In this document: piece after piece, positions 9,419 through 20,454 of the stretch
Layout of the letters: the number at the start of each line of letters is the position of its first letter
Numbering within the stretch: the first letter of the stretch is position 1
Source of the DNA: Thermoplasmata archaeon
GTDB taxonomy: Archaea > Thermoplasmatota > Thermoplasmata > Thermoplasmatales > GCA-001856825
NCBI GenBank assembly: GCA_021792255.1
Contig: JAJYUZ010000001.1
Coordinates: 62,001-126,000 of the forward strand
Reading direction: 5' to 3'
DNA: 64,000 bases
Translations under genes and position numbers: made by a program
The notes under the pieces: generated by a model
Database searches by the model: none
Told to the model about the DNA's origin: nothing
What the model saw: only the letters and a program-made list of their open reading frames with translations

Positions 9419-11008
9419 GTGCCTCACTATCCCGATACTGATGAAGTCGATCGGTCACATTTCTATTCTGCTCCTGGCCTGAGAATTGTGAGCAGCGACT
9501 CAGAATTAGAGACAATAGAGTCGTACTCCATCAATAGGTTTGACAAGGTGAAAATACTCCGAGACCTCAAATCGGGGAGAATGCTCTATTTTGTCACTTC
9601 ACCAGGCATTAGCGAAGACGAGACAAGGACTCTTGGAAACATCAAGAAGTCTTTCACTAAATCATTAAAAGATGAACCAGACATACTGCCTTACGTGGAC
9701 AGGAAGAAGTACCTGAATGAACGAGTCTCTTCGTACATTCTGGAAAATCACTTGAGTTACGACGAAGACACCTTGAATTACCTACAACACATCGTCCAAA
9801 GAGATTATCTAGGCTACGGAAAGATAGACGCGATTATGAATGACGCAAACGTCGAGGACATATCGTGTGATGGCGCTGGAATTCCAATTTATGTCTACCA
9901 TAAGAAATACCGAAATCTCAGAACCAATTTGACCTTTGAAGATGACAGAGAGCTGAATAATTTCATAGTTCTTCTTTCCCAGAAGGGAAATAAACAGATA
10001 TCTGTTTCCGACCCTATCCTCGATGCATCGACCCCCGAAGGTAACAGAATCAACGCGACGTTTGGGAAAGAGGTCACTGCAAAGGGAGGAACGTTCACAA
10101 TTCGTCTCTTCAAGAAAGTACCCTTGACGCCAGTCGACCTAGTCTTGCTCAAAACTGCCAGTCCCGAACTGATGGCTTATTTGTGGATGGCAACAGAGAG
10201 CGGCAAGAATCTGATTGTTCTGGGAGGAACGGGGGTGGGTAAAACGTCGACTCTAAACGCGGTCTCTATATTCCTTCCTTCTAATTCCAAGATAGTCAGC
10301 ATCGAGGACACAAGTGAGATAAACATACCTCACAAAAATTGGATTTCTGCGATCACCAGAAGTGGGGTGGGCGAAGGAAGGTTCGTCACTGGCAGGTCTG
10401 CCGGAGAGATTGATATGTTTGATCTGCTAATGAGTGCACTCAGACAACGCCCAGATTACATGATTGTGGGAGAGATCAGAGGAAAGGAGGCGTACAACCT
10501 GTTTCAGGCTATGTCTATGGGCCAGACAACTCTGACAACCATGCACGCGGAATCTATTGATAACATGATTACGAGACTGGAAAATCATCCACTAAACATT
10601 CCGAGAACGATGTTTACCTCTATAAACTGCGTCGTGTTGCAATCACAGGTCAAGATCAATGGACGACTTGAAAGAAGAATTACAGAAGTATCTGAGATTG
10701 TTAGGCTAGATCCAGAATCTAATGAACTGACCTTTAACACTATTTTTTACTGGGATTCATCCAGCGACAAAATTGTGTTTTCGGGTAAATCAGAAATACT
10801 TACTGAAAAGATTGAAAGCAATGGTCCAGACCAGGAAGAATACAAAGAGTTTAACAGTAGAACAAAACTCATAAAATATCTATCAGAAATGAAAGTCACG
10901 GACTACAAAGAGATGTGGAACTACCTTAGGAAGTATTCGAAAGACCCAACAGGACTTTATTCTGAGATAGAAAGCGCAGTCGAGGAAAGGAGGAAGTCTG
11001 GTGAGTAA
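9419..11008 (+). CDS. Type II/IV secretion ATPase, TadA/VirB11/FlaI-like (copy 1)
   Basis: The protein has 529 residues with a GTG start. An N-terminal domain of about 200 residues precedes a GspE-type motor. The Walker A is GGTGVGKTST at about residue 270, the Asp box is SIEDTSEI, the Walker B-like segment is RPDYMIVGEIRG, and the His box ends in TTMHAES. Such hexameric ATPases power assembly of type IV pili, archaella or Tad pili on the cytoplasmic face. It is the first gene of a five-gene operon and overlaps the next gene by 8 bases. A second ATPase of the same length lies three genes downstream. Confidence 0.9.
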   Translation: MPHYPDTDEVDRSHFYSAPGLRIVSSDSELETIESYSINRFDKVKILRDLKSGRMLYFVTSPGISEDETRTLGNIKKSFTKSLKDEPDILPYVDRKKYLNERVSSYILENHLSYDEDTLNYLQHIVQRDYLGYGKIDAIMNDANVEDISCDGAGIPIYVYHKKYRNLRTNLTFEDDRELNNFIVLLSQKGNKQISVSDPILDASTPEGNRINATFGKEVTAKGGTFTIRLFKKVPLTPVDLVLLKTASPELMAYLWMATESGKNLIVLGGTGVGKTSTLNAVSIFLPSNSKIVSIEDTSEINIPHKNWISAITRSGVGEGRFVTGRSAGEIDMFDLLMSALRQRPDYMIVGEIRGKEAYNLFQAMSMGQTTLTTMHAESIDNMITRLENHPLNIPRTMFTSINCVVLQSQVKINGRLERRITEVSEIVRLDPESNELTFNTIFYWDSSSDKIVFSGKSEILTEKIESNGPDQEEYKEFNSRTKLIKYLSEMKVTDYKEMWNYLRKYSKDPTGLYSEIESAVEERRKSGE

Positions 11009-11939
11009 ACGGACAGCACAATCAGATTCCACCTCAAAGGTCGATGAAAATTATGCTTCTGAGAACAGTGCAGTTAATAGTTTCTTTAGGGTTTCTTACG
11101 GACTTTTTGCTCTATTTATTGGGGGAACGAAATCTGACTTTCTCAGTAGCATACAACTAAATTTGGACAAAGCGGAGATCGATATATCTTCAGAAGTATA
11201 CCTAAGCGGAGTTTACTTTGCTAGTATGCTTGTGGGAATTGTACTGGTTGCTTTGACATTGGGAGAATACCTCAACAGGGGTCCATATAACTTCGTCTCG
11301 ATTCTGATTCCTGTTTCAGTCGTTCTAACTCTAGGCGTCGGTTTCTTCCTTCCAGGAATCAAGTCATCATCTAGAGGTAAAAAAATCGATGAGAATCTTG
11401 GTTCCGCATTCTCCTTCATCTCAGCAATGTCGAGTGCAGACGTACCGATCAATGCTATAATGCTAAAACTGTCCAAAATGAAGGAGTACGGTGAAGTCAG
11501 CAGGGAAGCCTTAAAGATAGCAAGCCGTACAGAGATCCTTGGTACAGACATTTTTACAGCAATGCAGCAGGTTGCGAAAAGTAGCGCATCAATAGAGTGG
11601 CAAAAATTCCTACAAGGTGCGGTGGCTACTTCCACAGCCGGGGCCAGGTTAAAACCATACTTTGTAGGAAAGGCCACGGAATATCAGAGCAGGTTGAGAA
11701 TATCTCTAAAGAAGAACGCTGAAAGCGTGTCGGTATTTGCCGAGACGTACGTGACGGTCGGGGTTGCCTTCCCACTGTTTCTTATCGTCATTCTTGCGGT
11801 GATGTCAGTGATTGCAAGGACAGCAAGTGGAGCGACAATCTCTTTTCTTTTACTCTTCTCTTTCATCGTTTTGCCAGTCATGATTGTCACTTTTATCCTG
11901 CTGATTTCAAGCGTCAACAAGGAGGTCCAGATCTCTTGA
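11001..11939 (+). CDS. Type II secretion/pilus platform protein, TadB/TadC/FlaJ half (copy 1)
   Basis: The protein has 312 residues, a GTG start and a strong upstream AAAGGAGGAAG. Hydrophobic segments lie near residues 68-85, 93-115, 251-275 and 280-303. Between the two pairs is the cytoplasmic T2SF (GspF) helical domain (GSAFSFISAMSSADVPINAI and following). Archaeal FlaJ-type platform proteins usually carry two T2SF domains in one chain of about 550 residues. Here each of two consecutive genes supplies one domain. It should sit in the membrane and couple the ATPase to filament assembly. It overlaps both neighbours by a few bases. Confidence 0.8.
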   Translation: MSKRTAQSDSTSKVDENYASENSAVNSFFRVSYGLFALFIGGTKSDFLSSIQLNLDKAEIDISSEVYLSGVYFASMLVGIVLVALTLGEYLNRGPYNFVSILIPVSVVLTLGVGFFLPGIKSSSRGKKIDENLGSAFSFISAMSSADVPINAIMLKLSKMKEYGEVSREALKIASRTEILGTDIFTAMQQVAKSSASIEWQKFLQGAVATSTAGARLKPYFVGKATEYQSRLRISLKKNAESVSVFAETYVTVGVAFPLFLIVILAVMSVIARTASGATISFLLLFSFIVLPVMIVTFILLISSVNKEVQIS

Positions 11940-12769
11940 ACAGACTGTCTTTGCTCGGGATCTCCTCCGGAGCTGTTTCCATTTTCTTTTCGCTTTACCT
12001 GTTTACAGTCAGCCCAAATAATCCTACATTAATTTTCGATTTTTTGGTCCTAGGTATCTTTCTTGCGCTCGCTCCCGCAGGAATCGTGGATATATTGCGA
12101 ACGAGAAAACAGAGGGCAATAGAAGGTGTACTTCCAGACTTCCTGAGGGACGTTGCCGAGGCCTCAAAATTTGGAACAAATCTTGCGGATTCGATCAAGA
12201 TAGCGTCAGAAGGACAGTATGGGGTCCTCAGTGGTGAGATCAAGAAGATCACTGCCCAAATAAAATGGGGGGTATCTGTTGATGAAGCGCTGAGGGGGTT
12301 TGCAGAGAGAAATAAATCTGCATTCACCGTAAGACTGATAAGCACTGTCATAGAATCGAACAGATCAGGAGGTAACGTGTCTGAAGTTCTCAATATTATA
12401 GCAGATAACTCCAAGGAGACTCAACTTCTTGCAAAAGAGAAATACTCTCAGCTAAATAGCTACGTAATAATTCTCCTGATAGCTTATGCAGTGTTTCTGC
12501 TCACCATACTCATACTTGATCAGCAGTTCTTTCCAGTTATGTCGAGACAAATAAGTTCTGGAAGTTCGATATCGTCCATCAGTTACCTAAACTATAGCGC
12601 AATCCCATTAATCAAAGAGATATTCACGGGAGTAGTGATACTTCAGGGAATAGGAAGTGGGTTGATGTCTGGAGTTCTTTTCGATGGGAGGTACCAGAGC
12701 GGATTCTTGTATGCCGCTGTTCTGATCGCCATCGGATACCTCACCGTTCTCCTATTTGGAGGAGTTTGA
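11936..12769 (+). CDS. Type II secretion/pilus platform protein, TadC/FlaJ half (copy 2)
   Basis: The protein has 277 residues with a TTG start preceded by AAGGAGG. The topology matches the previous gene, with two N-terminal membrane helices (residues 5-22 and 30-50), a cytoplasmic T2SF domain (LPDFLRDVAEASKFGTNLAD... with NRSGGNVSEVLNIIADN), and further C-terminal helices. The segment ESNRSGGNVSEVL is the recognisable TadC/GspF region. It probably forms a heterodimeric platform with its upstream neighbour. It overlaps that neighbour by 4 bases and abuts the second ATPase. Confidence 0.82.
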   Translation: MNRLSLLGISSGAVSIFFSLYLFTVSPNNPTLIFDFLVLGIFLALAPAGIVDILRTRKQRAIEGVLPDFLRDVAEASKFGTNLADSIKIASEGQYGVLSGEIKKITAQIKWGVSVDEALRGFAERNKSAFTVRLISTVIESNRSGGNVSEVLNIIADNSKETQLLAKEKYSQLNSYVIILLIAYAVFLLTILILDQQFFPVMSRQISSGSSISSISYLNYSAIPLIKEIFTGVVILQGIGSGLMSGVLFDGRYQSGFLYAAVLIAIGYLTVLLFGGV

Positions 12770-12771
12770 AA

Positions 12772-14361
12772 ATGTCAAAAGACTCCATTCCTTATATAAA
12801 ACGCGATCCCCCTGGATTTAATAGCAGATTTACGGGCAAGGATCTGTGCAGTGACATGACCATGGGCACAGACCAGCAACTGGTTTATGACTACGAAGTA
12901 GAACCCCCCTTTGGTTCCGTTCAAATTGTCCTCGATAAAGGAAATGGCACTTATTTTTACAAAGTTAAGGAGCCAATTTTGAGTGCAAACTCCAGATCAT
13001 TTTCAGAAGAGGCTAGACGGAATTTTGTCGCATCAATCTCATCGTATTCACCGAGGAAGGATGACAGAATTAGAACACTCAGAACATTCCTCAGAGAATT
13101 TGCTGGTAAGACAAAAGCGGGTTTATCGGAGCTAGAGCTTGAAAAGGTCTTTTATTTTCTCTACAGAGAATTCGAAGGATACGGGCCCATAGAAGTACCC
13201 CTGCTGGACGACAATATTGAAGATATTTCGTGCGTAGGTCCTAATGCTCCACTGTACGTGGTCCACAGAAAATTTGGATCTGTAGTTTCTAACATAATTT
13301 TTGAGAGAGATAGCGATGTGGATGACTTCGTCAGAAATTTGGTACAACGCTCCGGGAAACACATATCGATTGCTGTCCCGATGGTAGATTGTTCTCTCCC
13401 GACTGGAGCCAGACTTCAAGCTACTCTTGGCAGGGAAATCACAAAAAATGGATCTTCCTTCACAATCAGACGGTTCAGGGATGATCCCCTCACTCCCACA
13501 GATCTTGTCGATCTTGGAACAATGAATGTAGACATTGCCGTATATCTCTGGCTAGCCATCGAGAAAGGGGAAAACATGTTCATATTAGGTGGTACTGCGT
13601 CCGGAAAAACTACCACACTGAATTCCATTCTCCTGTTCGTGCCATTGGACAAGAAGGTGGTAAGCATTGAAGACACAAAAGAACTCAACATTCCTCATGA
13701 GAACTGGGTCCAGACACTGACGAGACAGGGAACTGGAGATGTGAATGCCGCAACAAGGAAAAGGGTCGGAGAACTAGATATGTTCGATCTCCTTGTGAAC
13801 AGTCTCAGGCAGAGGCCAGACTACATAATTGTTGGAGAGGTACGAGGACGAGAGGCATACACCGTCTTTCAGTCGATGGCTACCGGCCAAACGGTCATCA
13901 GCACCTTTCACTCAAACGATGTGGCTTCTTTCGTTCATAGACTGGAAGGCGAACCTCTAAGCATACCAAGATCAATGATTACATCCCTCAATATCGTGGT
14001 ACTTCTTGCTCAAAGCAAAGTTGGGGAAAACACGATCAGAAGAATAAAGAAGGTTGTCGAGATAGTCGGCATCGAGAAGGCATCAAACGAAGTCGTCACG
14101 AACACGGTCTTTGAATGGGATCCTGGTTCTGACAAATTCATTTTTACAGGCCACTCTTACTTTCAGGAAAGAATGATGAAAGAAGAGAACAAGACCCTCG
14201 AACATTTAAATGATGAAATAAACAAGAGAAAGGAGATGCTGGAGGATCTGAGACGACAACGAAGGATAGGGGCTACAGAATTCTCCGAAAAAATCAACAA
14301 ATTTCTGGAAGATTCCGGTCGCGTTTCAGAACATGGAAGCAATGAACGGAGTGTCGATTAA
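12772..14361 (+). CDS. Type II/IV secretion ATPase, TadA/VirB11/FlaI-like (copy 2) with coiled-coil tail
   Basis: The track starts at TTG 12766, but the ATG at 12772 has better spacing from the GGAGGAG at 12758-12764, giving 529 residues. The Walker A is GGTASGKTTT, the Asp box is SIEDTKEL, the Walker B-like segment is RPDYIIVGEVRG, and the His box is STFHSND. It is clearly homologous to the ATPase at 9419 over most of its length. The last 65 residues are rich in Lys, Glu and Arg and look coiled-coil. The two ATPases could be extension and retraction motors, or two motors for two filaments. That is inference. Confidence 0.9.
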   Translation: MSKDSIPYIKRDPPGFNSRFTGKDLCSDMTMGTDQQLVYDYEVEPPFGSVQIVLDKGNGTYFYKVKEPILSANSRSFSEEARRNFVASISSYSPRKDDRIRTLRTFLREFAGKTKAGLSELELEKVFYFLYREFEGYGPIEVPLLDDNIEDISCVGPNAPLYVVHRKFGSVVSNIIFERDSDVDDFVRNLVQRSGKHISIAVPMVDCSLPTGARLQATLGREITKNGSSFTIRRFRDDPLTPTDLVDLGTMNVDIAVYLWLAIEKGENMFILGGTASGKTTTLNSILLFVPLDKKVVSIEDTKELNIPHENWVQTLTRQGTGDVNAATRKRVGELDMFDLLVNSLRQRPDYIIVGEVRGREAYTVFQSMATGQTVISTFHSNDVASFVHRLEGEPLSIPRSMITSLNIVVLLAQSKVGENTIRRIKKVVEIVGIEKASNEVVTNTVFEWDPGSDKFIFTGHSYFQERMMKEENKTLEHLNDEINKRKEMLEDLRRQRRIGATEFSEKINKFLEDSGRVSEHGSNERSVD

Positions 14362-15211
14362 TACGAAGGGAGTAAAGTACGAGGAGGAAGGAGTTGCAAC
14401 AGCCGTAGGGGCAATATTCGCCATCCTAATTTTTATTTTCCTTCTCAGCCTCTTCATCACAAGTTACGTACCGGCAGAAATGACCGCGTACGAGGAACAG
14501 TACTCCTCAGGAGTTACTAATGACATGATGCAGTTCATAAGCACGGTAAGTCTGTTAACCGTCAACTATCAACAGGGTGAGAGTGCTTCGGTGACCTTTG
14601 ATCTTCAATCCAACTATATACCCCTATTCACCTCACCGACAATGGGTGAATTGAGTCTTACTTCATCGGCCCCGGGAACTGACGGCTATCTCTCTGTGAG
14701 CAATTCTACAGTTACAGTGCACTCGGGGGGTTGTCTATCTTTATTGACCAACAATAGGTACTTCGTGGACGAATCACTTTATTTTGAACTCTCTACATTG
14801 CTGTATGAGCAAAGGGATAGCAGTCCACTAATAAATACAACTCTTCAGTCAAGTCTCATTCGAGTCGAACCCTCCACAAATGGCTCCATCAACCTTTCAA
14901 TGAGTCTGATCAACATTACTGGTGGACCTATCACACTGTCTTCGGGATCACCTTTTGCCCTTTCCGTTACTGCACTGTCGAAGGATTATTATCAACTGAG
15001 CGGCAATCTTACTTTAACATATTATTCTTCATTTGGTTTTCAAATTTATAAATCCCTGTCAGAAAGTCTAACAAACATAAATGGAATCAGCATTGGTTAC
15101 GTAAACGAGGGCAATGGGTACGGAACTGTAGACATCAGCTCCTCCGCTACTCCAATAATTCTCAACGTAACGGAAATGACTATCCTTGTCGGTGACAGCA
15201 TTTCTTCCTAG
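14333..15211 (+). CDS. Pilin-like single-span surface protein
   Basis: The protein has 292 residues. After a short polar N-terminus comes EEEGVATAVGAIFAILIFIF, a type IV pilin-like hydrophobic helix preceded by charged residues and a Gly. A long Ser/Thr/Asn-rich, Cys-poor, beta-rich ectodomain follows, with several N-glycosylation sequons (NST, NTT, NLS, NIT). The position at the end of the ATPase/platform operon, overlapping the ATPase gene by 29 bases, argues that it is the exported substrate or a filament/anchor subunit. It is larger than typical pilins and resembles the pilin-like anchored proteins found in other archaea. Cleavage by prepilin peptidase after the Gly is possible but unproven. 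Confidence 0.7.
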   Translation: MEAMNGVSINTKGVKYEEEGVATAVGAIFAILIFIFLLSLFITSYVPAEMTAYEEQYSSGVTNDMMQFISTVSLLTVNYQQGESASVTFDLQSNYIPLFTSPTMGELSLTSSAPGTDGYLSVSNSTVTVHSGGCLSLLTNNRYFVDESLYFELSTLLYEQRDSSPLINTTLQSSLIRVEPSTNGSINLSMSLINITGGPITLSSGSPFALSVTALSKDYYQLSGNLTLTYYSSFGFQIYKSLSESLTNINGISIGYVNEGNGYGTVDISSSATPIILNVTEMTILVGDSISS

Positions 15212-15257: not shown

Positions 15258-15842
15258 TCACATTATGTAAGATACCGTATCAGAATCGAAATTCTCTACG
15301 ATCTTAAGATTCTCTCCGTTTCCACTAGGAGCATTTGCTAGGAACGGGTACACCTGCCAAGGATCTCTTGTTCCCAGTTCATATGCAGGATGACCACCTT
15401 CGAAAATTGTAGCACATATTCTTGCGACAGTTGCCCTGGCCTTATACTCGTCCAAAATACCTAAAGAGTGAAGATATTCGTGCATCAGTATTACGAACAC
15501 GAATGAATTGACCTCTTCTCTGGGTCGGTTAGCGTGCTTCAGAGCATCGAGAAGATTTCTGTTCATTACGATGTAATTCCCACCAACCTCCCAAAACGCT
15601 CCTAGCTGCGCTGGCAAGTTGGCAAGGGCCAGCCCAATTCCTACTCTTTCTCTACCCAGAACAGATTTCACAGTCTTTCTTACTAATGAAAAAATAGTGT
15701 TGTAGTCCGTGCTCGAGTTGTTCCCCCCAAATATCCCTGCAAGTCTGGATGGAATGTTTAACTCTTTCCGAATAACAGGGTTTAACAAAATAGGCCCCAT
15801 ATTCACCTCGGCAGTCTTGTCCAGTTCAGACGAAAATTTCAT
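15258..15842 (-). CDS. Putative zinc metallopeptidase (HExxH)
   Basis: The protein has 194 residues. The motif MHEYLHSLGILDEY around residue 126 has the HExxH arrangement (HEYLH) of zincin peptidases, followed by a Gly and an acidic residue that could be a further ligand. There is no signal peptide, so it should be cytoplasmic. The archaemetzincin C-terminal cysteine pattern is absent. The substrate is unknown. It lies convergent to the pilin-like gene, 46 bases away, and divergent from the molybdenum hydroxylase operon. Confidence 0.65.
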   Translation of the reverse strand: MKFSSELDKTAEVNMGPILLNPVIRKELNIPSRLAGIFGGNNSSTDYNTIFSLVRKTVKSVLGRERVGIGLALANLPAQLGAFWEVGGNYIVMNRNLLDALKHANRPREEVNSFVFVILMHEYLHSLGILDEYKARATVARICATIFEGGHPAYELGTRDPWQVYPFLANAPSGNGENLKIVENFDSDTVSYIM

Positions 15843-15968: not shown

Positions 15969-16841
15969 GTGCACCCATCATCATTCGAATATTTTGCTCC
16001 AGCAAGAATGGAGGAAGCGCTGAGTCTCCTTTCAAAGCACAGCGGAGAGGCAAAGATTATGGCAGGAGGTCAGAGCTTGATACCGTTGTTGAAACTGAGA
16101 ATAGCATCTTTTCCCTACGTTGTGGACATTTCAAGAATAGAGGGTATGGACCAAATAAAGGAAGAACGAGGTTTTCTGGAAATTGGTGCTCTCACCAAGA
16201 TCAGCGAACTTGAAGACAGCAATATAATCAAAGATAAATACCAAATTTTGCACGAAGCAGCAACTCAAATTGCTGATCCCTTGGTAAGGAACAGGGGGAC
16301 TGTTGGAGGAAACATTTCGCACGCGGATCCATCAAACGACATACCCGCTGTAGTTATTGCTATGAAGGCAAAGTTGGAAGTCATCGGAAGGAAAGAAAAA
16401 AGGACATTAAATGCCGACTCGTTCATCACCGATTCATTCAGTACTGCACTCGAGGAAGGAGAAATACTCAGCAAGATACTGATTCCGATTCCTGACACCA
16501 GATCTGGAGGGTGTTATATTAAACAAAAGAAAAGCGCCGGTGATTTCTCTATTGCAGCAATTGCTGTCCAAATGACGCTTGGTGATGACTACAAAGTCCG
16601 GAGCGCGGGTATAGGGCTTACGTCTGTCGCCCCTAAACCAACCAGGGCAGTCAAGGCCGAGCAATACATCGAAGGCAAGAGAGTCGACAACTCGGTGGCA
16701 AAGGAGATATCTAAAATTGTTGTTTCGGAATCCGACCCTTCGACTGATTTCTACGGGACTGCAGAATTCAAGAAGAAGATTCTCGGTAGAATAGCGGAAG
16801 ATGCAATCAACCTGTCGTACGAACGGGCTATGGTGAAATAG
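15969..16841 (+). CDS. Molybdenum hydroxylase, FAD-binding medium subunit (CoxM/CutB-like)
   Basis: The protein has 290 residues with a GTG start. The FAD-binding fold shows AGGQSLIPLLKLR near residue 34 and RNRGTVGGNISHADPSND near residue 105, both diagnostic of the medium subunit of CO dehydrogenase, xanthine dehydrogenase and glyceraldehyde oxidoreductase. It passes electrons from the Fe-S subunit to the final acceptor. It is the first gene of a three-gene operon (medium, small, large). The stop codon directly abuts the ATG of the small subunit. Confidence 0.92.
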   Translation: MHPSSFEYFAPARMEEALSLLSKHSGEAKIMAGGQSLIPLLKLRIASFPYVVDISRIEGMDQIKEERGFLEIGALTKISELEDSNIIKDKYQILHEAATQIADPLVRNRGTVGGNISHADPSNDIPAVVIAMKAKLEVIGRKEKRTLNADSFITDSFSTALEEGEILSKILIPIPDTRSGGCYIKQKKSAGDFSIAAIAVQMTLGDDYKVRSAGIGLTSVAPKPTRAVKAEQYIEGKRVDNSVAKEISKIVVSESDPSTDFYGTAEFKKKILGRIAEDAINLSYERAMVK

Positions 16842-17348
16842 ATGAGCACGACTAAAATAAAAACAAGAATAAATGGAAAGCAGATAGAATCGGAGGTCGA
16901 ACCTAGGAAATTGCTAGTCCATTTCCTTAGGGAAGATTTAGGTCTGACTGGAACTCACATCGGTTGTGATACATCAAATTGTGGAGCATGCACTGTACTC
17001 GTCGACGGAAAGGCTATCAAGTCATGCACGATGCTGGCAGTCCAGGCCGATGGAAAAGAAGTCACTTCTATAGAAGGAATTTCCAAGGATGACGAACTTC
17101 ATCCACTGCAAAAGGCATTTTTGGAGAAGCACGGACTGCAGTGCGGATACTGTACATCCGGAATGATACTCACTTCACTCTGGCTGTTAAGGAAGAACAA
17201 AAATCCAACGGAAGAGGAAATCCGAAAGAGCTTATCAGGAAACCTGTGTCGATGCACCGGCTACCAGAGGATTGTCGAGTCCGTCATGTATGGAGCACAG
17301 CTAATGATAGAAAAGGAAGCAGAGGAACACGAAATGGTGATGAGATGA
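16842..17348 (+). CDS. Molybdenum hydroxylase, [2Fe-2S] small subunit (CoxS/CutC-like)
   Basis: The protein has 168 residues, a normal length. The plant-ferredoxin-type cluster is GCDTSNCGACTVLVDGKAIKSC, and the second, alpha-helical cluster is CGYCTSGM with NLCRCTGYQRIV. All eight cysteines are present. The subunit relays electrons from the molybdopterin centre to FAD. It is translationally coupled to the large subunit by an ATGA overlap (17345-17348), which fixes that start. Confidence 0.95.
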   Translation: MSTTKIKTRINGKQIESEVEPRKLLVHFLREDLGLTGTHIGCDTSNCGACTVLVDGKAIKSCTMLAVQADGKEVTSIEGISKDDELHPLQKAFLEKHGLQCGYCTSGMILTSLWLLRKNKNPTEEEIRKSLSGNLCRCTGYQRIVESVMYGAQLMIEKEAEEHEMVMR

Positions 17349-19399
17349 ATATGTCCACGGTGAGGTGGGAGGACAGCGACCTAGCCTACGACTCATCGAA
17401 CTTTGTTAGAGGAAAAGGGCATTTTGTGGACGACATAAAACTGCAAGGAATGCTTTTTATGACAGTCCTGAGAAGTCCCTATGCACGCGCTAGAATTTTG
17501 AGTCTTAAGGGAGGGATGAACAGTCAAGACTTAGGAGCCAAGATGGCTTCGGTCGGAGAAGGGGCAGACCCAGGTGCTGGCATTTCCATCGAACCGGTTT
17601 TTGCAACGGGTTTCGTCAACTATGTCGGAGAACCAGTAGCGGCAGTTTTTGCAGAAGATAGGTACAAATCTACAGATCTGCTCGAGTCGGTAGAAGTTGA
17701 CTACGAACCTCTGAAGCCTGTAGTCACTATGGACGACGCACTTGCATTTGGTCCTATTCACGAAGGTATGAAAAACAACATTTTAGTGGAGGCTACTAAA
17801 GGAGATGATTTCTCGGACCCTAAGTCACCAATAGTCCTTGAGGACACGCTTGAGAATGAGAGGGTATCGACCAACCCAATAGAACCCAGAGGAATTGTAG
17901 CGAGCTACGCAGACGGCATTTTGAACGTTTGGATCTCTACCCAGTCGGTGCACAGCATAAAAGAAGGCCTAGTAGAATCACTAAACTTGAATCCAGATAA
18001 TGTAAGAGTAATGCAGGCAGATACCGGAGGAGCGTTCGGTTCAAAGGGTGGCCTGTACCCAGAATACGTGATGGCTTCTTACGCTTCGATGAAGTACAGA
18101 AAACCAGTAAAGTGGATTGAGACCAGAAGGGAACATCTGACATCGACGAACCCCGGGAGGGGGGTAAGAAGCAGAGTAAAGATTTTCGCTGAAAGAAGCG
18201 GGAAGATTACTGGCATGAAGGGGGACGTGCTAATAGATGCTGGTGCATATGGTTCCGGAATTGCATCATTTTCTGCACAGTTCGTGGCCATGATGATGAC
18301 GGGACCTTATTCGATCGAAAAAGCATTTGTCACTGGGAGGTCACTCCTCACCAATAAAGTACCGCAAGGACCTTATCGGGGGGCAGGAAGACCGGAGGCA
18401 TCTTTCTTTATTGAGAGGATGGTTGATCTTCTTGCGGACGAAGTGAACAAGGATCCTGCTGATGTCAGACTTCTGAATACAAGTGATAAGCCTTTCAACT
18501 CGCCCCTCGGAATGAAGATAGACGCAGCAAGACCATTCTTCGAGAGCGCCATAAAAGAACTAGAGTACAGGAAGGAAGCCAAAATGACTAAAGGAGTTGG
18601 AGTATCATTCTTTGTCTTGGTGCCTGCCGTCTATCCCGGAGAGAGTGCTAGAATTATGGTAAGAGACGGTAGAATAAGAGTATGGCTTGGTGGTAATAGC
18701 CACGGGCAAGGACACGAAGACTTTGTGAAGAAACTGGTCAACGAAGAGCTGAATGTTCCAGGAGATCTTGTAACCCTCTATCGAGGTGACACTGGAATGA
18801 CCAAGGTAGGCGTCGGATCATGGGGGAGCAGGTCCGCAATAGTAGCAGGTGCAGCAGTCGTTTCGGTATGCAGAAAGCTGAAAAAGGACGTCGAAGATGA
18901 CAATGGGACATACTCCTATGAATTGCTGCTGGCAGGCAGCTACGACGAATTCATAAACGAGGAGAAGAGGATGACTCTGAATTCCTTTGGGGCTAATCTC
19001 GCATCAGTCGAAGTTGGAAAATTCGGAACCGTTCGTGTAAAAAAGTGCTTGGCTTATTACGACGTTGGAAGGGCCCTGAACAAGGAAATGGTGATTGGTC
19101 AGATTCAAGGAGGGATGGCTCAAGGAATCGGTCAGACTCTCCACGAAGGGTTGTTCTACAATGAAGACGGTCAGCTCATTACTTCAAGCATTTCTGACGC
19201 AGGGGTTCCTCTAGCGGAAGACCTTCCTAACTTTGGAGTCAAGATTGCAGAGAACAGGTCTGCGCTTCCACACGGAGCCAAAGGAGTTGGAGAATCTCCA
19301 ACTATCGGTGTTCCGACCGCACTTATCAGGGCTATAGAAAAGGCAAGTGGTTTGCGACTCAGAAAGACTCCAGTGACCGCGGAAGATCTTATGCAGTAG
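17345..19399 (+). CDS. Molybdenum hydroxylase, molybdopterin-binding large subunit (aldehyde oxidase / CoxL form II-like)
   Basis: The track begins at 17141 inside the small subunit. The ATG at 17345 overlaps the small-subunit stop (ATGA) and gives 684 residues, somewhat shorter than the usual 750-800. The N-terminus resembles the family (NFVRGKGHFVDDI). Cofactor motifs are TGGAFGSKGGLYPE, QGPYRGAGRPEA and the catalytic-Glu motif AKGVGESP. The CO dehydrogenase form I loop (AYxCSFR) is absent and the PYRGAGR version is present, so CO oxidation is unlikely. An aldehyde or purine substrate is more plausible, for example glyceraldehyde as in Sulfolobus CutABC. The gene ends directly against the convergent mocA-like gene. 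Confidence 0.9.
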   Translation: MNMSTVRWEDSDLAYDSSNFVRGKGHFVDDIKLQGMLFMTVLRSPYARARILSLKGGMNSQDLGAKMASVGEGADPGAGISIEPVFATGFVNYVGEPVAAVFAEDRYKSTDLLESVEVDYEPLKPVVTMDDALAFGPIHEGMKNNILVEATKGDDFSDPKSPIVLEDTLENERVSTNPIEPRGIVASYADGILNVWISTQSVHSIKEGLVESLNLNPDNVRVMQADTGGAFGSKGGLYPEYVMASYASMKYRKPVKWIETRREHLTSTNPGRGVRSRVKIFAERSGKITGMKGDVLIDAGAYGSGIASFSAQFVAMMMTGPYSIEKAFVTGRSLLTNKVPQGPYRGAGRPEASFFIERMVDLLADEVNKDPADVRLLNTSDKPFNSPLGMKIDAARPFFESAIKELEYRKEAKMTKGVGVSFFVLVPAVYPGESARIMVRDGRIRVWLGGNSHGQGHEDFVKKLVNEELNVPGDLVTLYRGDTGMTKVGVGSWGSRSAIVAGAAVVSVCRKLKKDVEDDNGTYSYELLLAGSYDEFINEEKRMTLNSFGANLASVEVGKFGTVRVKKCLAYYDVGRALNKEMVIGQIQGGMAQGIGQTLHEGLFYNEDGQLITSSISDAGVPLAEDLPNFGVKIAENRSALPHGAKGVGESPTIGVPTALIRAIEKASGLRLRKTPVTAEDLMQ

Positions 19400-20017
19400 T
19401 CATTTTTTCTCTTCATACTTCTTACGGCTCTCTATTTTTTGTAGATCGTCTACAATATCGATGTCCGTTAAGCTAGGTGCGTCGACTTCGACCTTGATCA
19501 GATTCTCTACGTGTGATTCAGCTATGCTTCTTGCCCCTTTATCCTCTTTCAACTGTTTCAGCTCACCGAATACAGATGAAGGAAACAGTATCGGGTTGCG
19601 GACTTGTCCATCCACTGAACACGCAATTATTCTACGCGGGCTCACTAGGAATTCAAGAACGAGGCGGCTGATATCTGACGGTTTAATCAGAGGCTGATCT
19701 GCAAGCAGAAAGAGAATCCCATCTACATCACCTTCGAATTGTCGGGTTGCCAGTGCGATGGAAGTACCTATTCCTCTCGCCCACTCCTTGTTAACTATCT
19801 TCAATGTACCCTTGTGCAATATCGGATCGAGGTCTCTTCCGGGGGGCGTCACCACTGCGATATTCCAAAAGTTGTTCGCACGGACAGAATCCATGGTTCG
19901 TTCCAGGATGCTGATCCCGTCGATTCTTTGAAGGAGCTTATTCGAGCCAAATCTCTTTGAAGCGCCTGCAGCCAAAATGACAGCTGCAATCTTTATTCTA
20001 TTCTTTTCAACATTCAT
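19400..20017 (-). CDS. MocA-like molybdenum cofactor nucleotidyltransferase
   Basis: The protein has 205 residues. The NTP-transferase N-terminus AAVILAAGASKRFGSNKLLQ and the metal-binding LLADQPLI motif match MobA/MocA enzymes. These attach CMP or GMP to molybdopterin for xanthine-dehydrogenase-type enzymes. The context (Mo hydroxylase large subunit, CoxG-like and XdhC-like genes) favours MocA-type cytidylylation. The start overlaps the stop of the CoxG-like gene by 4 bases, so the two are co-transcribed on the minus strand. Confidence 0.88.
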   Translation of the reverse strand: MNVEKNRIKIAAVILAAGASKRFGSNKLLQRIDGISILERTMDSVRANNFWNIAVVTPPGRDLDPILHKGTLKIVNKEWARGIGTSIALATRQFEGDVDGILFLLADQPLIKPSDISRLVLEFLVSPRRIIACSVDGQVRNPILFPSSVFGELKQLKEDKGARSIAESHVENLIKVEVDAPSLTDIDIVDDLQKIESRKKYEEKK

Positions 20018-20454
20018 CTTTCGAACGCTTCTCTGAAGGAGTTTGTCAGTACTGAAATGTACTTCTCAGCAGTGTTGTTAATGACTCTAGATCCCATTGT
20101 AGCTATCACTCCGCCGATCGTAATCTCAACATTCCAAGTTACCAAAGTTGCACCATCGGTGGAGTCAGAAAAGTCATAAGTAGCTTTAAGGTTGAGCGAT
20201 CCCGTAGCCCCAGATCCCTTTGCCCAAATCTCTACCGAATGGTCGTCAATCTTGTTTTTGATTTCCAGGAGCAAATTGAACTTACCCTTGATCGCAGACT
20301 GACCTGCTTTTACCACGAGCCTCGAAGAAGTTTTGTCGATCCTCTCTACAGACTGAACGTCCGGGATAACGGAAGTGACTTTCTCAATATCCGACACGAA
20401 CGCCAAAACCGTCGGCCTATCAGTTTTCACTTCAAATTTTCCTTTGAAATTCAT
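20014..20454 (-). CDS. CoxG-like SRPBCC protein
   Basis: The protein has 146 residues. The START/SRPBCC fold of CO dehydrogenase subunit G is recognisable from MNFKGKFEVKTDRPTVLAFV through the C-terminal helix (AEKYISVLTNSFREAF). CoxG proteins are encoded with molybdenum hydroxylases and are proposed to help membrane association or maturation. It is transcribed with the mocA-like gene. The intergenic region with the XdhC-like gene (about 100 bases) is divergent and has TATA-like sequences for both directions. Confidence 0.88.
   Translation of the reverse strand: MNFKGKFEVKTDRPTVLAFVSDIEKVTSVIPDVQSVERIDKTSSRLVVKAGQSAIKGKFNLLLEIKNKIDDHSVEIWAKGSGATGSLNLKATYDFSDSTDGATLVTWNVEITIGGVIATMGSRVINNTAEKYISVLTNSFREAFER

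Follow-up and report, generated by a model that had tools for sequence, protein, structure and literature searches.

Archaeal pili have been regarded as running on a single multifunctional motor, and Archaea as lacking retraction ATPases. A gene order in which two ATPase genes flank two platform genes is already known from Cuniculiplasma, as is a two-ATPase locus from Aciduliprofundum boonei. The C. divulgatum cluster CSP5_0712-0715 (ATPase-platform-platform-ATPase) was described in 2016 by Golyshina et al., who noted its likeness to Aciduliprofundum (PMC5155288). A 2025 paper named the proteins CdiPE1, CdiPFa, CdiPFb and CdiPE2 and described its pair of ATPases as unique, finding it enigmatic why there should be a second; a structure of the C. 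divulgatum pilus is also available (8REY) (PMC12448462). The type IV pilus (T4P) locus of A. boonei similarly contains two distinct ATPases (PMC4858521, PMC5155288). In the analysis of Denise et al., PilB/PilT and PilT/PilU are the only ATPase duplications reported (PMC6668835).

The locus characterized here lies in a 64,000-nucleotide stretch of the genome of a Thermoplasmata archaeon (C3:62001-126000, hereafter the window). It resembles CdiP in that two paralogous ATPases flank two platform halves in one operon, the pilin genes are remote and there is no archaellum. In a genome presumed to be that of C. divulgatum (G031, whose pilin and machinery positions agree with those given in PMC12448462), E1 falls inside the E1 clade described below (100/100), and orthology of its E2 with E2 of the window fits a tree with a single E2 clade (p = 0.66). 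The sequences are nevertheless distant, identity between window E2 and its presumed C. divulgatum counterpart being 37%, and the window operon has a fifth gene, P5, for which no equivalent was seen at this locus in the Cuniculiplasma-type family. The Sulfolobus Aap pilus (AapE/AapF) is likewise an archaeal T4P of the adhesion type and combines a secretion ATPase with a FlaJ-like platform, but it has one ATPase, an undivided platform protein and AapX, and needs no further ATPase to retract (PMC12448462, PMC11178785).

Operon structure and genomic context

Five genes on the + strand, designated E1, Fa, Fb, E2 and P5, fill positions 9419-15211 of the window (Table 1). Neighbouring genes overlap (E1/Fa by 8 nt, Fa/Fb by 4 nt and E2/P5 by 29 nt) or abut, and E2 has an alternative upstream TTG start at 12766 that would give a protein of 531 aa. 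The order given in the original prediction (ATPase, T2SF half, T2SF half, ATPase, pilin-like protein, all overlapping or abutting) is borne out by the open reading frames and their domain matches.

Table 1. Genes of the operon, with window coordinates and predicted products
Gene	Predicted product	Position	Strand	Features
E1	First pilus motor ATPase, CdiPE-like	9419..11008	+	GTG start, 529 aa
Fa	N-terminal half of membrane platform, CdiPFa-like	11001..11939	+	312 aa, one T2SSF domain
Fb	C-terminal half of membrane platform, CdiPFb-like	11936..12769	+	277 aa, one T2SSF domain
E2	Second pilus motor ATPase	12772..14361	+	ATG start, 529 aa
P5	Pilin-like protein	14333..15211	+	292 aa

A T2SSE search of the 1.59 Mb genome found no type IV filament ATPase besides E1 and E2; two weaker matches were read from their sequences as a PIN/KH-type ATPase and an ABC ATPase. 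In this assembly, which is 94% complete, the operon is the sole type IV filament engine found.

Convergent with P5 is a gene on the - strand (15258-15842) for a 194-aa protein with the zincin-like motif HEYLHSLG (HExxHxxG) and no Pfam or NCBIfam match. Homologues of this protein were seen only adjoining the operon in the same genus (L035, L037, L038, L039 and L067). Directly downstream of the pilus operon, positions 15969-20454 carry a molybdenum hydroxylase (CO dehydrogenase/xanthine dehydrogenase-like) set with accessory genes, named from ORF translations only.

The ATPases E1 and E2

E1 and E2 are T2SSE/VirB11-type secretion ATPases (PF00437; E-values: 2e-32 and 7e-33, respectively). As the original prediction had it, they are equal in length and homologous yet diverged, with 40% identity over 484 aa. 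The top NCBIfam model for both is FlaI, which would fit a divergent archaellum, but the scores of 399 and 390 bits fall far below the cut-off of 550. Neither protein scores as PilT by the NCBIfam cut-off of 319 bits, the PilT models giving only weak matches (5e-11 and 1e-12; 42 and 48 bits).

An ATPase phylogeny had been proposed as a check of the original prediction. In a tree of 65 rows, the archaellum ATPases, including SaFlaI, form a clade of their own (100/100) and the phylum's Tad-like ATPases form another (100/100), and both E1 and E2 fall outside the two. When a profile of E2 homologues was compared with solved structures, Archaeoglobus GspE (2OAP) scored 590 bits and Sulfolobus FlaI (4II7) 412 bits. 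Among solved structures, the E2 family profile is thus closest to the A. fulgidus protein (2OAP/2OAQ), which lies outside the E1 and E2 clades. A genome-wide search found no ArlI, and the five genes of the operon include no accessory arl gene. The archaellum reading suggested by the FlaI matches is rejected by the tree and by the ranking of solved structures, and we regard a divergent archaellum as highly improbable. By their sequences, E1 and E2 are assigned to the archaeal GspE (2OAP-like) branch; this ranking of GspE above FlaI, with the position outside the archaellum clade, argues that the operon encodes a non-archaellum archaeal T4P.

The catalytic residues of E1 are K275 (Walker A), E296 (Asp-box), E352 (Walker B), H376 (His-box) and R210 (PxGxR), which are present in 64/64 E1 sequences. 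Those of E2 are K279, E300, E356 and H380 in the same order of boxes, and the K, E, E and H residues and the PxGxR arginine are present in every E1 or E2 row that covers these sites. Because every tested catalytic residue is kept in both, the two paralogues have full catalytic sets and neither is decaying. E1 and E2 differ class-wide at, for example, E1 positions 207, 209 and 215, where E1 has E, H and Y and both E2 and the single-ATPase relatives have D, S and L. The window copies have themselves drifted at discriminating sites (N209 and F215 in E1; T211 and A213 in E2). E1 looks like the derived copy and E2 like the conservative one, resembling the single-ATPase (ancestral) type more closely at most of the discriminating sites, because single-ATPase relatives mostly carry the E2 letter at the sites of class-wide difference.

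The split platform

Fa and Fb each contain one PF00482 domain (E-values: 1.7e-10 and 2.6e-19), as originally claimed for a platform shared by two single-T2SF proteins. FlaJ models align Fa to their N-terminal half and Fb to their C-terminal half, and no pairwise similarity between Fa and Fb was detectable. Tad/Epd pili (TadA, TadB, TadC) also have a platform of two single-T2SSF proteins (PMC6668835), but their ATPase clade is the separate one described above, and the platform genes are not diagnostic of Tad/Epd, as many non-Tad relatives have two.

The split platform is not special to this system but common among its single-motor relatives: E-Fa-Fb loci with one ATPase were found in ANME-2, Methanosarcinales and Methanocellales metagenome-assembled genomes (MAGs), as well as in many lineages within the phylum. 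Relatives with a single ATPase, which the original prediction would have counted against itself, therefore occur outside the class and essentially not inside it. Because these relatives share both Fa and Fb, the split platform alone cannot explain the second motor. This weakens the suggestion that one asymmetric platform is served by two motors, as it does the version with one motor per platform half. The second motor, rather than the platform, is the lineage-defining feature.

Pilins and a plausible prepilin peptidase

P5 has a conserved pilin-type hydrophobic N-terminal helix followed by a beta-rich domain, and its AlphaFold model (pLDDT 89) shows a helix at residues 18-77 and then strands. 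PF23960/DUF7289 is matched by 22 of 48 P5 homologues (best 1.4e-10), the window copy being among those without a match, and a P5 profile matches the N-terminus of the pseudopilin GspG (5WDA; E-value: 5e-4). A fold search of the PDB with the P5 model gave no meaningful match (best E-value: 0.03, TM 0.1). P5 is likely a minor or tip pilin of DUF7289-like type.

Two Pilin_N genes are located at 376 and 380 kb of contig C3, approximately 305 kb from the machinery at 71-77 kb. One encodes a 191-aa protein that weakly matches 8REY, the pilin of C. divulgatum (E-value: 0.87). No prepilin peptidase was found with PF01478, and the best match to PF06847 (E-value: 0.098) was a GKGD-bearing ORF. This ORF (L259:919-1578) encodes a 220-aa membrane protein that scores below the Pfam cut-offs and, judged by its motif, is plausibly a divergent prepilin peptidase and candidate PibD.

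Conservation within the class and phylum

The dual-ATPase locus recurs within the order. The order E1-Fa-Fb-E2 is kept at 30/30 class-level loci from 23 families; these loci were chosen by their E2 matches and show gene order, not frequency. Because relatives have the same gene order, assembly error and chance are ruled out as its source in the window, and the search for the operon in relatives that accompanied the original prediction has given a positive answer. P5 is present at 29/30 of these loci. It is mostly upstream of the block, was undetected at one locus, and is downstream at one; the downstream position occurs in the window's own family, in f11 and in a few named records. The block is also present in named public MAGs, among them those of Methanomassiliicoccus, Methanomassiliicoccales and DHVE2 archaea. 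The duplicated ATPase, the split platform and the pilin-like fifth protein are all ancient and under strong constraint.

Retention was assessed by a census of 203 genomes of the class that are at least 90% complete, using a match threshold set to exclude ArlI. The census counts ATPase matches per genome, adjacency having been seen in the separately picked loci. The system was present in 137/203 genomes, and 134 of these 137 carry at least two such ATPases. A single copy was found in only three, whose assemblies are in 160-220 pieces. In the remaining 66 genomes without a match, the system is either absent or below threshold. Within the class, then, essentially no genome keeps just one ATPase: both are retained or neither is. 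Near-complete Thermoplasmatales genomes of genera g9, g11, g20 and g25 (family f6) have no close relative of E1 or E2, and these genera appear to have lost the whole system rather than half of it.

Several lineages depart from the common arrangement. In family f3 (L050/L051, L052/L053 and L054), E1 is at a separate locus and P5-Fa-Fb-E2 remain together, a relocation that was probably a single evolutionary event. An Aciduliprofundum MAG (L221/L250) likewise has a P5-Fa-Fb-E2 block with E1 on another contig. Other dual loci have the order E-E-Fa-Fb in family f42 (L142, L143, L144 and L153) and E-Fa-Fb-E in families f36 and f47.

Age of the duplication

The E1 clade is supported at 99/98 in a balanced tree and at 100/100 in the 65-row tree. 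E2 forms a clade (100/100) in the balanced tree, from which the fast Cuniculiplasma-type rows were left out. With the long-branch rows included, a tree with one E2 clade had a log-likelihood above that of the free search and was not rejected by the AU test (p = 0.66). Because E1 and E2 each form a clade that spans the class, the duplication is placed before the diversification of the class.

How far before is less sharply bounded. The E-Fa-Fb-E loci of the sister lineages f36/f47 may descend from the same event: pB joins E2 at 96/94 in the balanced tree and does not do so in the 65-row tree. In topology tests, neither an E1+pA clade (p = 0.54) nor a duplication confined to the class (p = 0.19) was rejected. 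The two ATPases of f42 form one group (100/99) among single-ATPase lineages, which argues that they arose independently and that the phylum most likely acquired dual motors on two or more occasions.

One might propose that one ATPase is a recent duplicate or pseudogene heading for loss, an outcome that would have undone the original prediction. We found no point in favour of this reading. It is ruled out by the 40% identity between the copies, the class-deep clades and the motifs intact in 64/64 rows, and we give it practically no weight.

Role of the second motor

From the gene content we infer a pilus as the product of the operon. The best overall explanation, which we hold tentatively and at slightly less than an even chance, is that pilus extension on the Fa/Fb platform is the work of E2, and that E1 is a second, specialised motor whose task is most likely retraction. 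The five genes would then provide a minor pilin and the engine, in cytoplasm and membrane, for an adhesion-type archaeal T4P of the CdiP kind, with filament subunits supplied by the remote pilin genes. Fa and Fb would jointly build the platform that is made elsewhere by one double-domain protein, and E1 and E2 would be separate, catalytically complete ATPases working on it. Since P5-Fa-Fb-E2 stay together in f3 when E1 is elsewhere, E2 is the platform's constant companion. This constancy and the conservative sequence of E2 suggest that it is the main extension motor, and that E1 is an obligate partner with a second job. By analogy, we conjecture that this job is retraction or disassembly. The works-like comparison is with PilB/PilT(/PilU) of bacterial T4aP, in which two paralogous motors serve one platform, but the archaeal duplication is independent and E1 and E2 match PilT models only weakly. 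E1/E2 would thus be an independently arisen archaeal parallel to PilB/PilT.

Observations on other pili bear on this conjecture. No twitching was observed in C. divulgatum, which has the same ATPase pair (PMC12448462). Nor is a second motor required for retraction: the Sulfolobus Aap pilus retracts on a single ATPase (PMC11178785), and CpaF has been described as driving extension and retraction alike (PMC11300603). The antagonistic motor pair of the original prediction may still be correct, although neither ATPase is a PilT.

Secretion ATPases of this family form hexamers. The main rival to our explanation is a single mixed (hetero-hexameric) ring of E1 and E2 on Fa/Fb, with neither ATPase active by itself and no separate roles in extension and retraction. 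The both-or-none retention of the census is consistent with such a ring, as it is with our own explanation, and E1-specific substitutions bunch around the PxGxR segment (E1 203-215), which we take to be near subunit contacts. The strongest mutual correlation of tree distances, which fits a mixed ring as well as the two-motor explanation above, is that between E1 and E2 (partial r = 0.79; 0.60 without fast lineages), a value that may reflect only equal protein length and shared ancestry. ATPase hetero-hexamers have been raised in a commentary on the superfamily (PMC6711533). We nonetheless consider a mixed ring unlikely. First, single-ATPase relatives run the same split platform. Second, both paralogues have full catalytic sets. 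Third, E1 lies outside the operon in f3, which is awkward for a strict 1:1 assembly but not fatal to it.

Alternatively, both ATPases could drive assembly, as two extension motors for different pilin sets or conditions (regulation or cargo choice). Makarova et al. proposed that pilin sets are exchanged between paralogous ATPase/TadC pairs, and cited A. boonei, in which a single locus has two ATPases (PMC4858521); the present genome has two pilins. The fixed co-operonic order, the single platform and the near-absence of one-copy genomes, however, point to joint rather than alternative use, and we judge two extension motors to be quite unlikely.

Returning to E2 as extension motor with E1 as its specialised partner, a bolder form of this explanation is that E1 is a dedicated second motor, the counterpart of PilT, that evolved before the class diversified, and that with the independent f42 duplication, opposed motor pairs arose repeatedly in Archaea. 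This is possible, but we think it rather doubtful.

Significance

Four findings were not met with in the papers cited, supplements and subscription journals aside: that the arrangement is conserved class-wide, how old the duplication is, that both ATPases are retained or neither, and that f42 duplicated its motor independently. Twin motors are an ancestral trait of the whole class, including Methanomassiliicoccales, retained together or not at all and with full catalytic sets in both copies. The split platform and the second motor are separate innovations. The second motor can be viewed as a selected and testable feature, for which PilB/PilT is the natural comparison.
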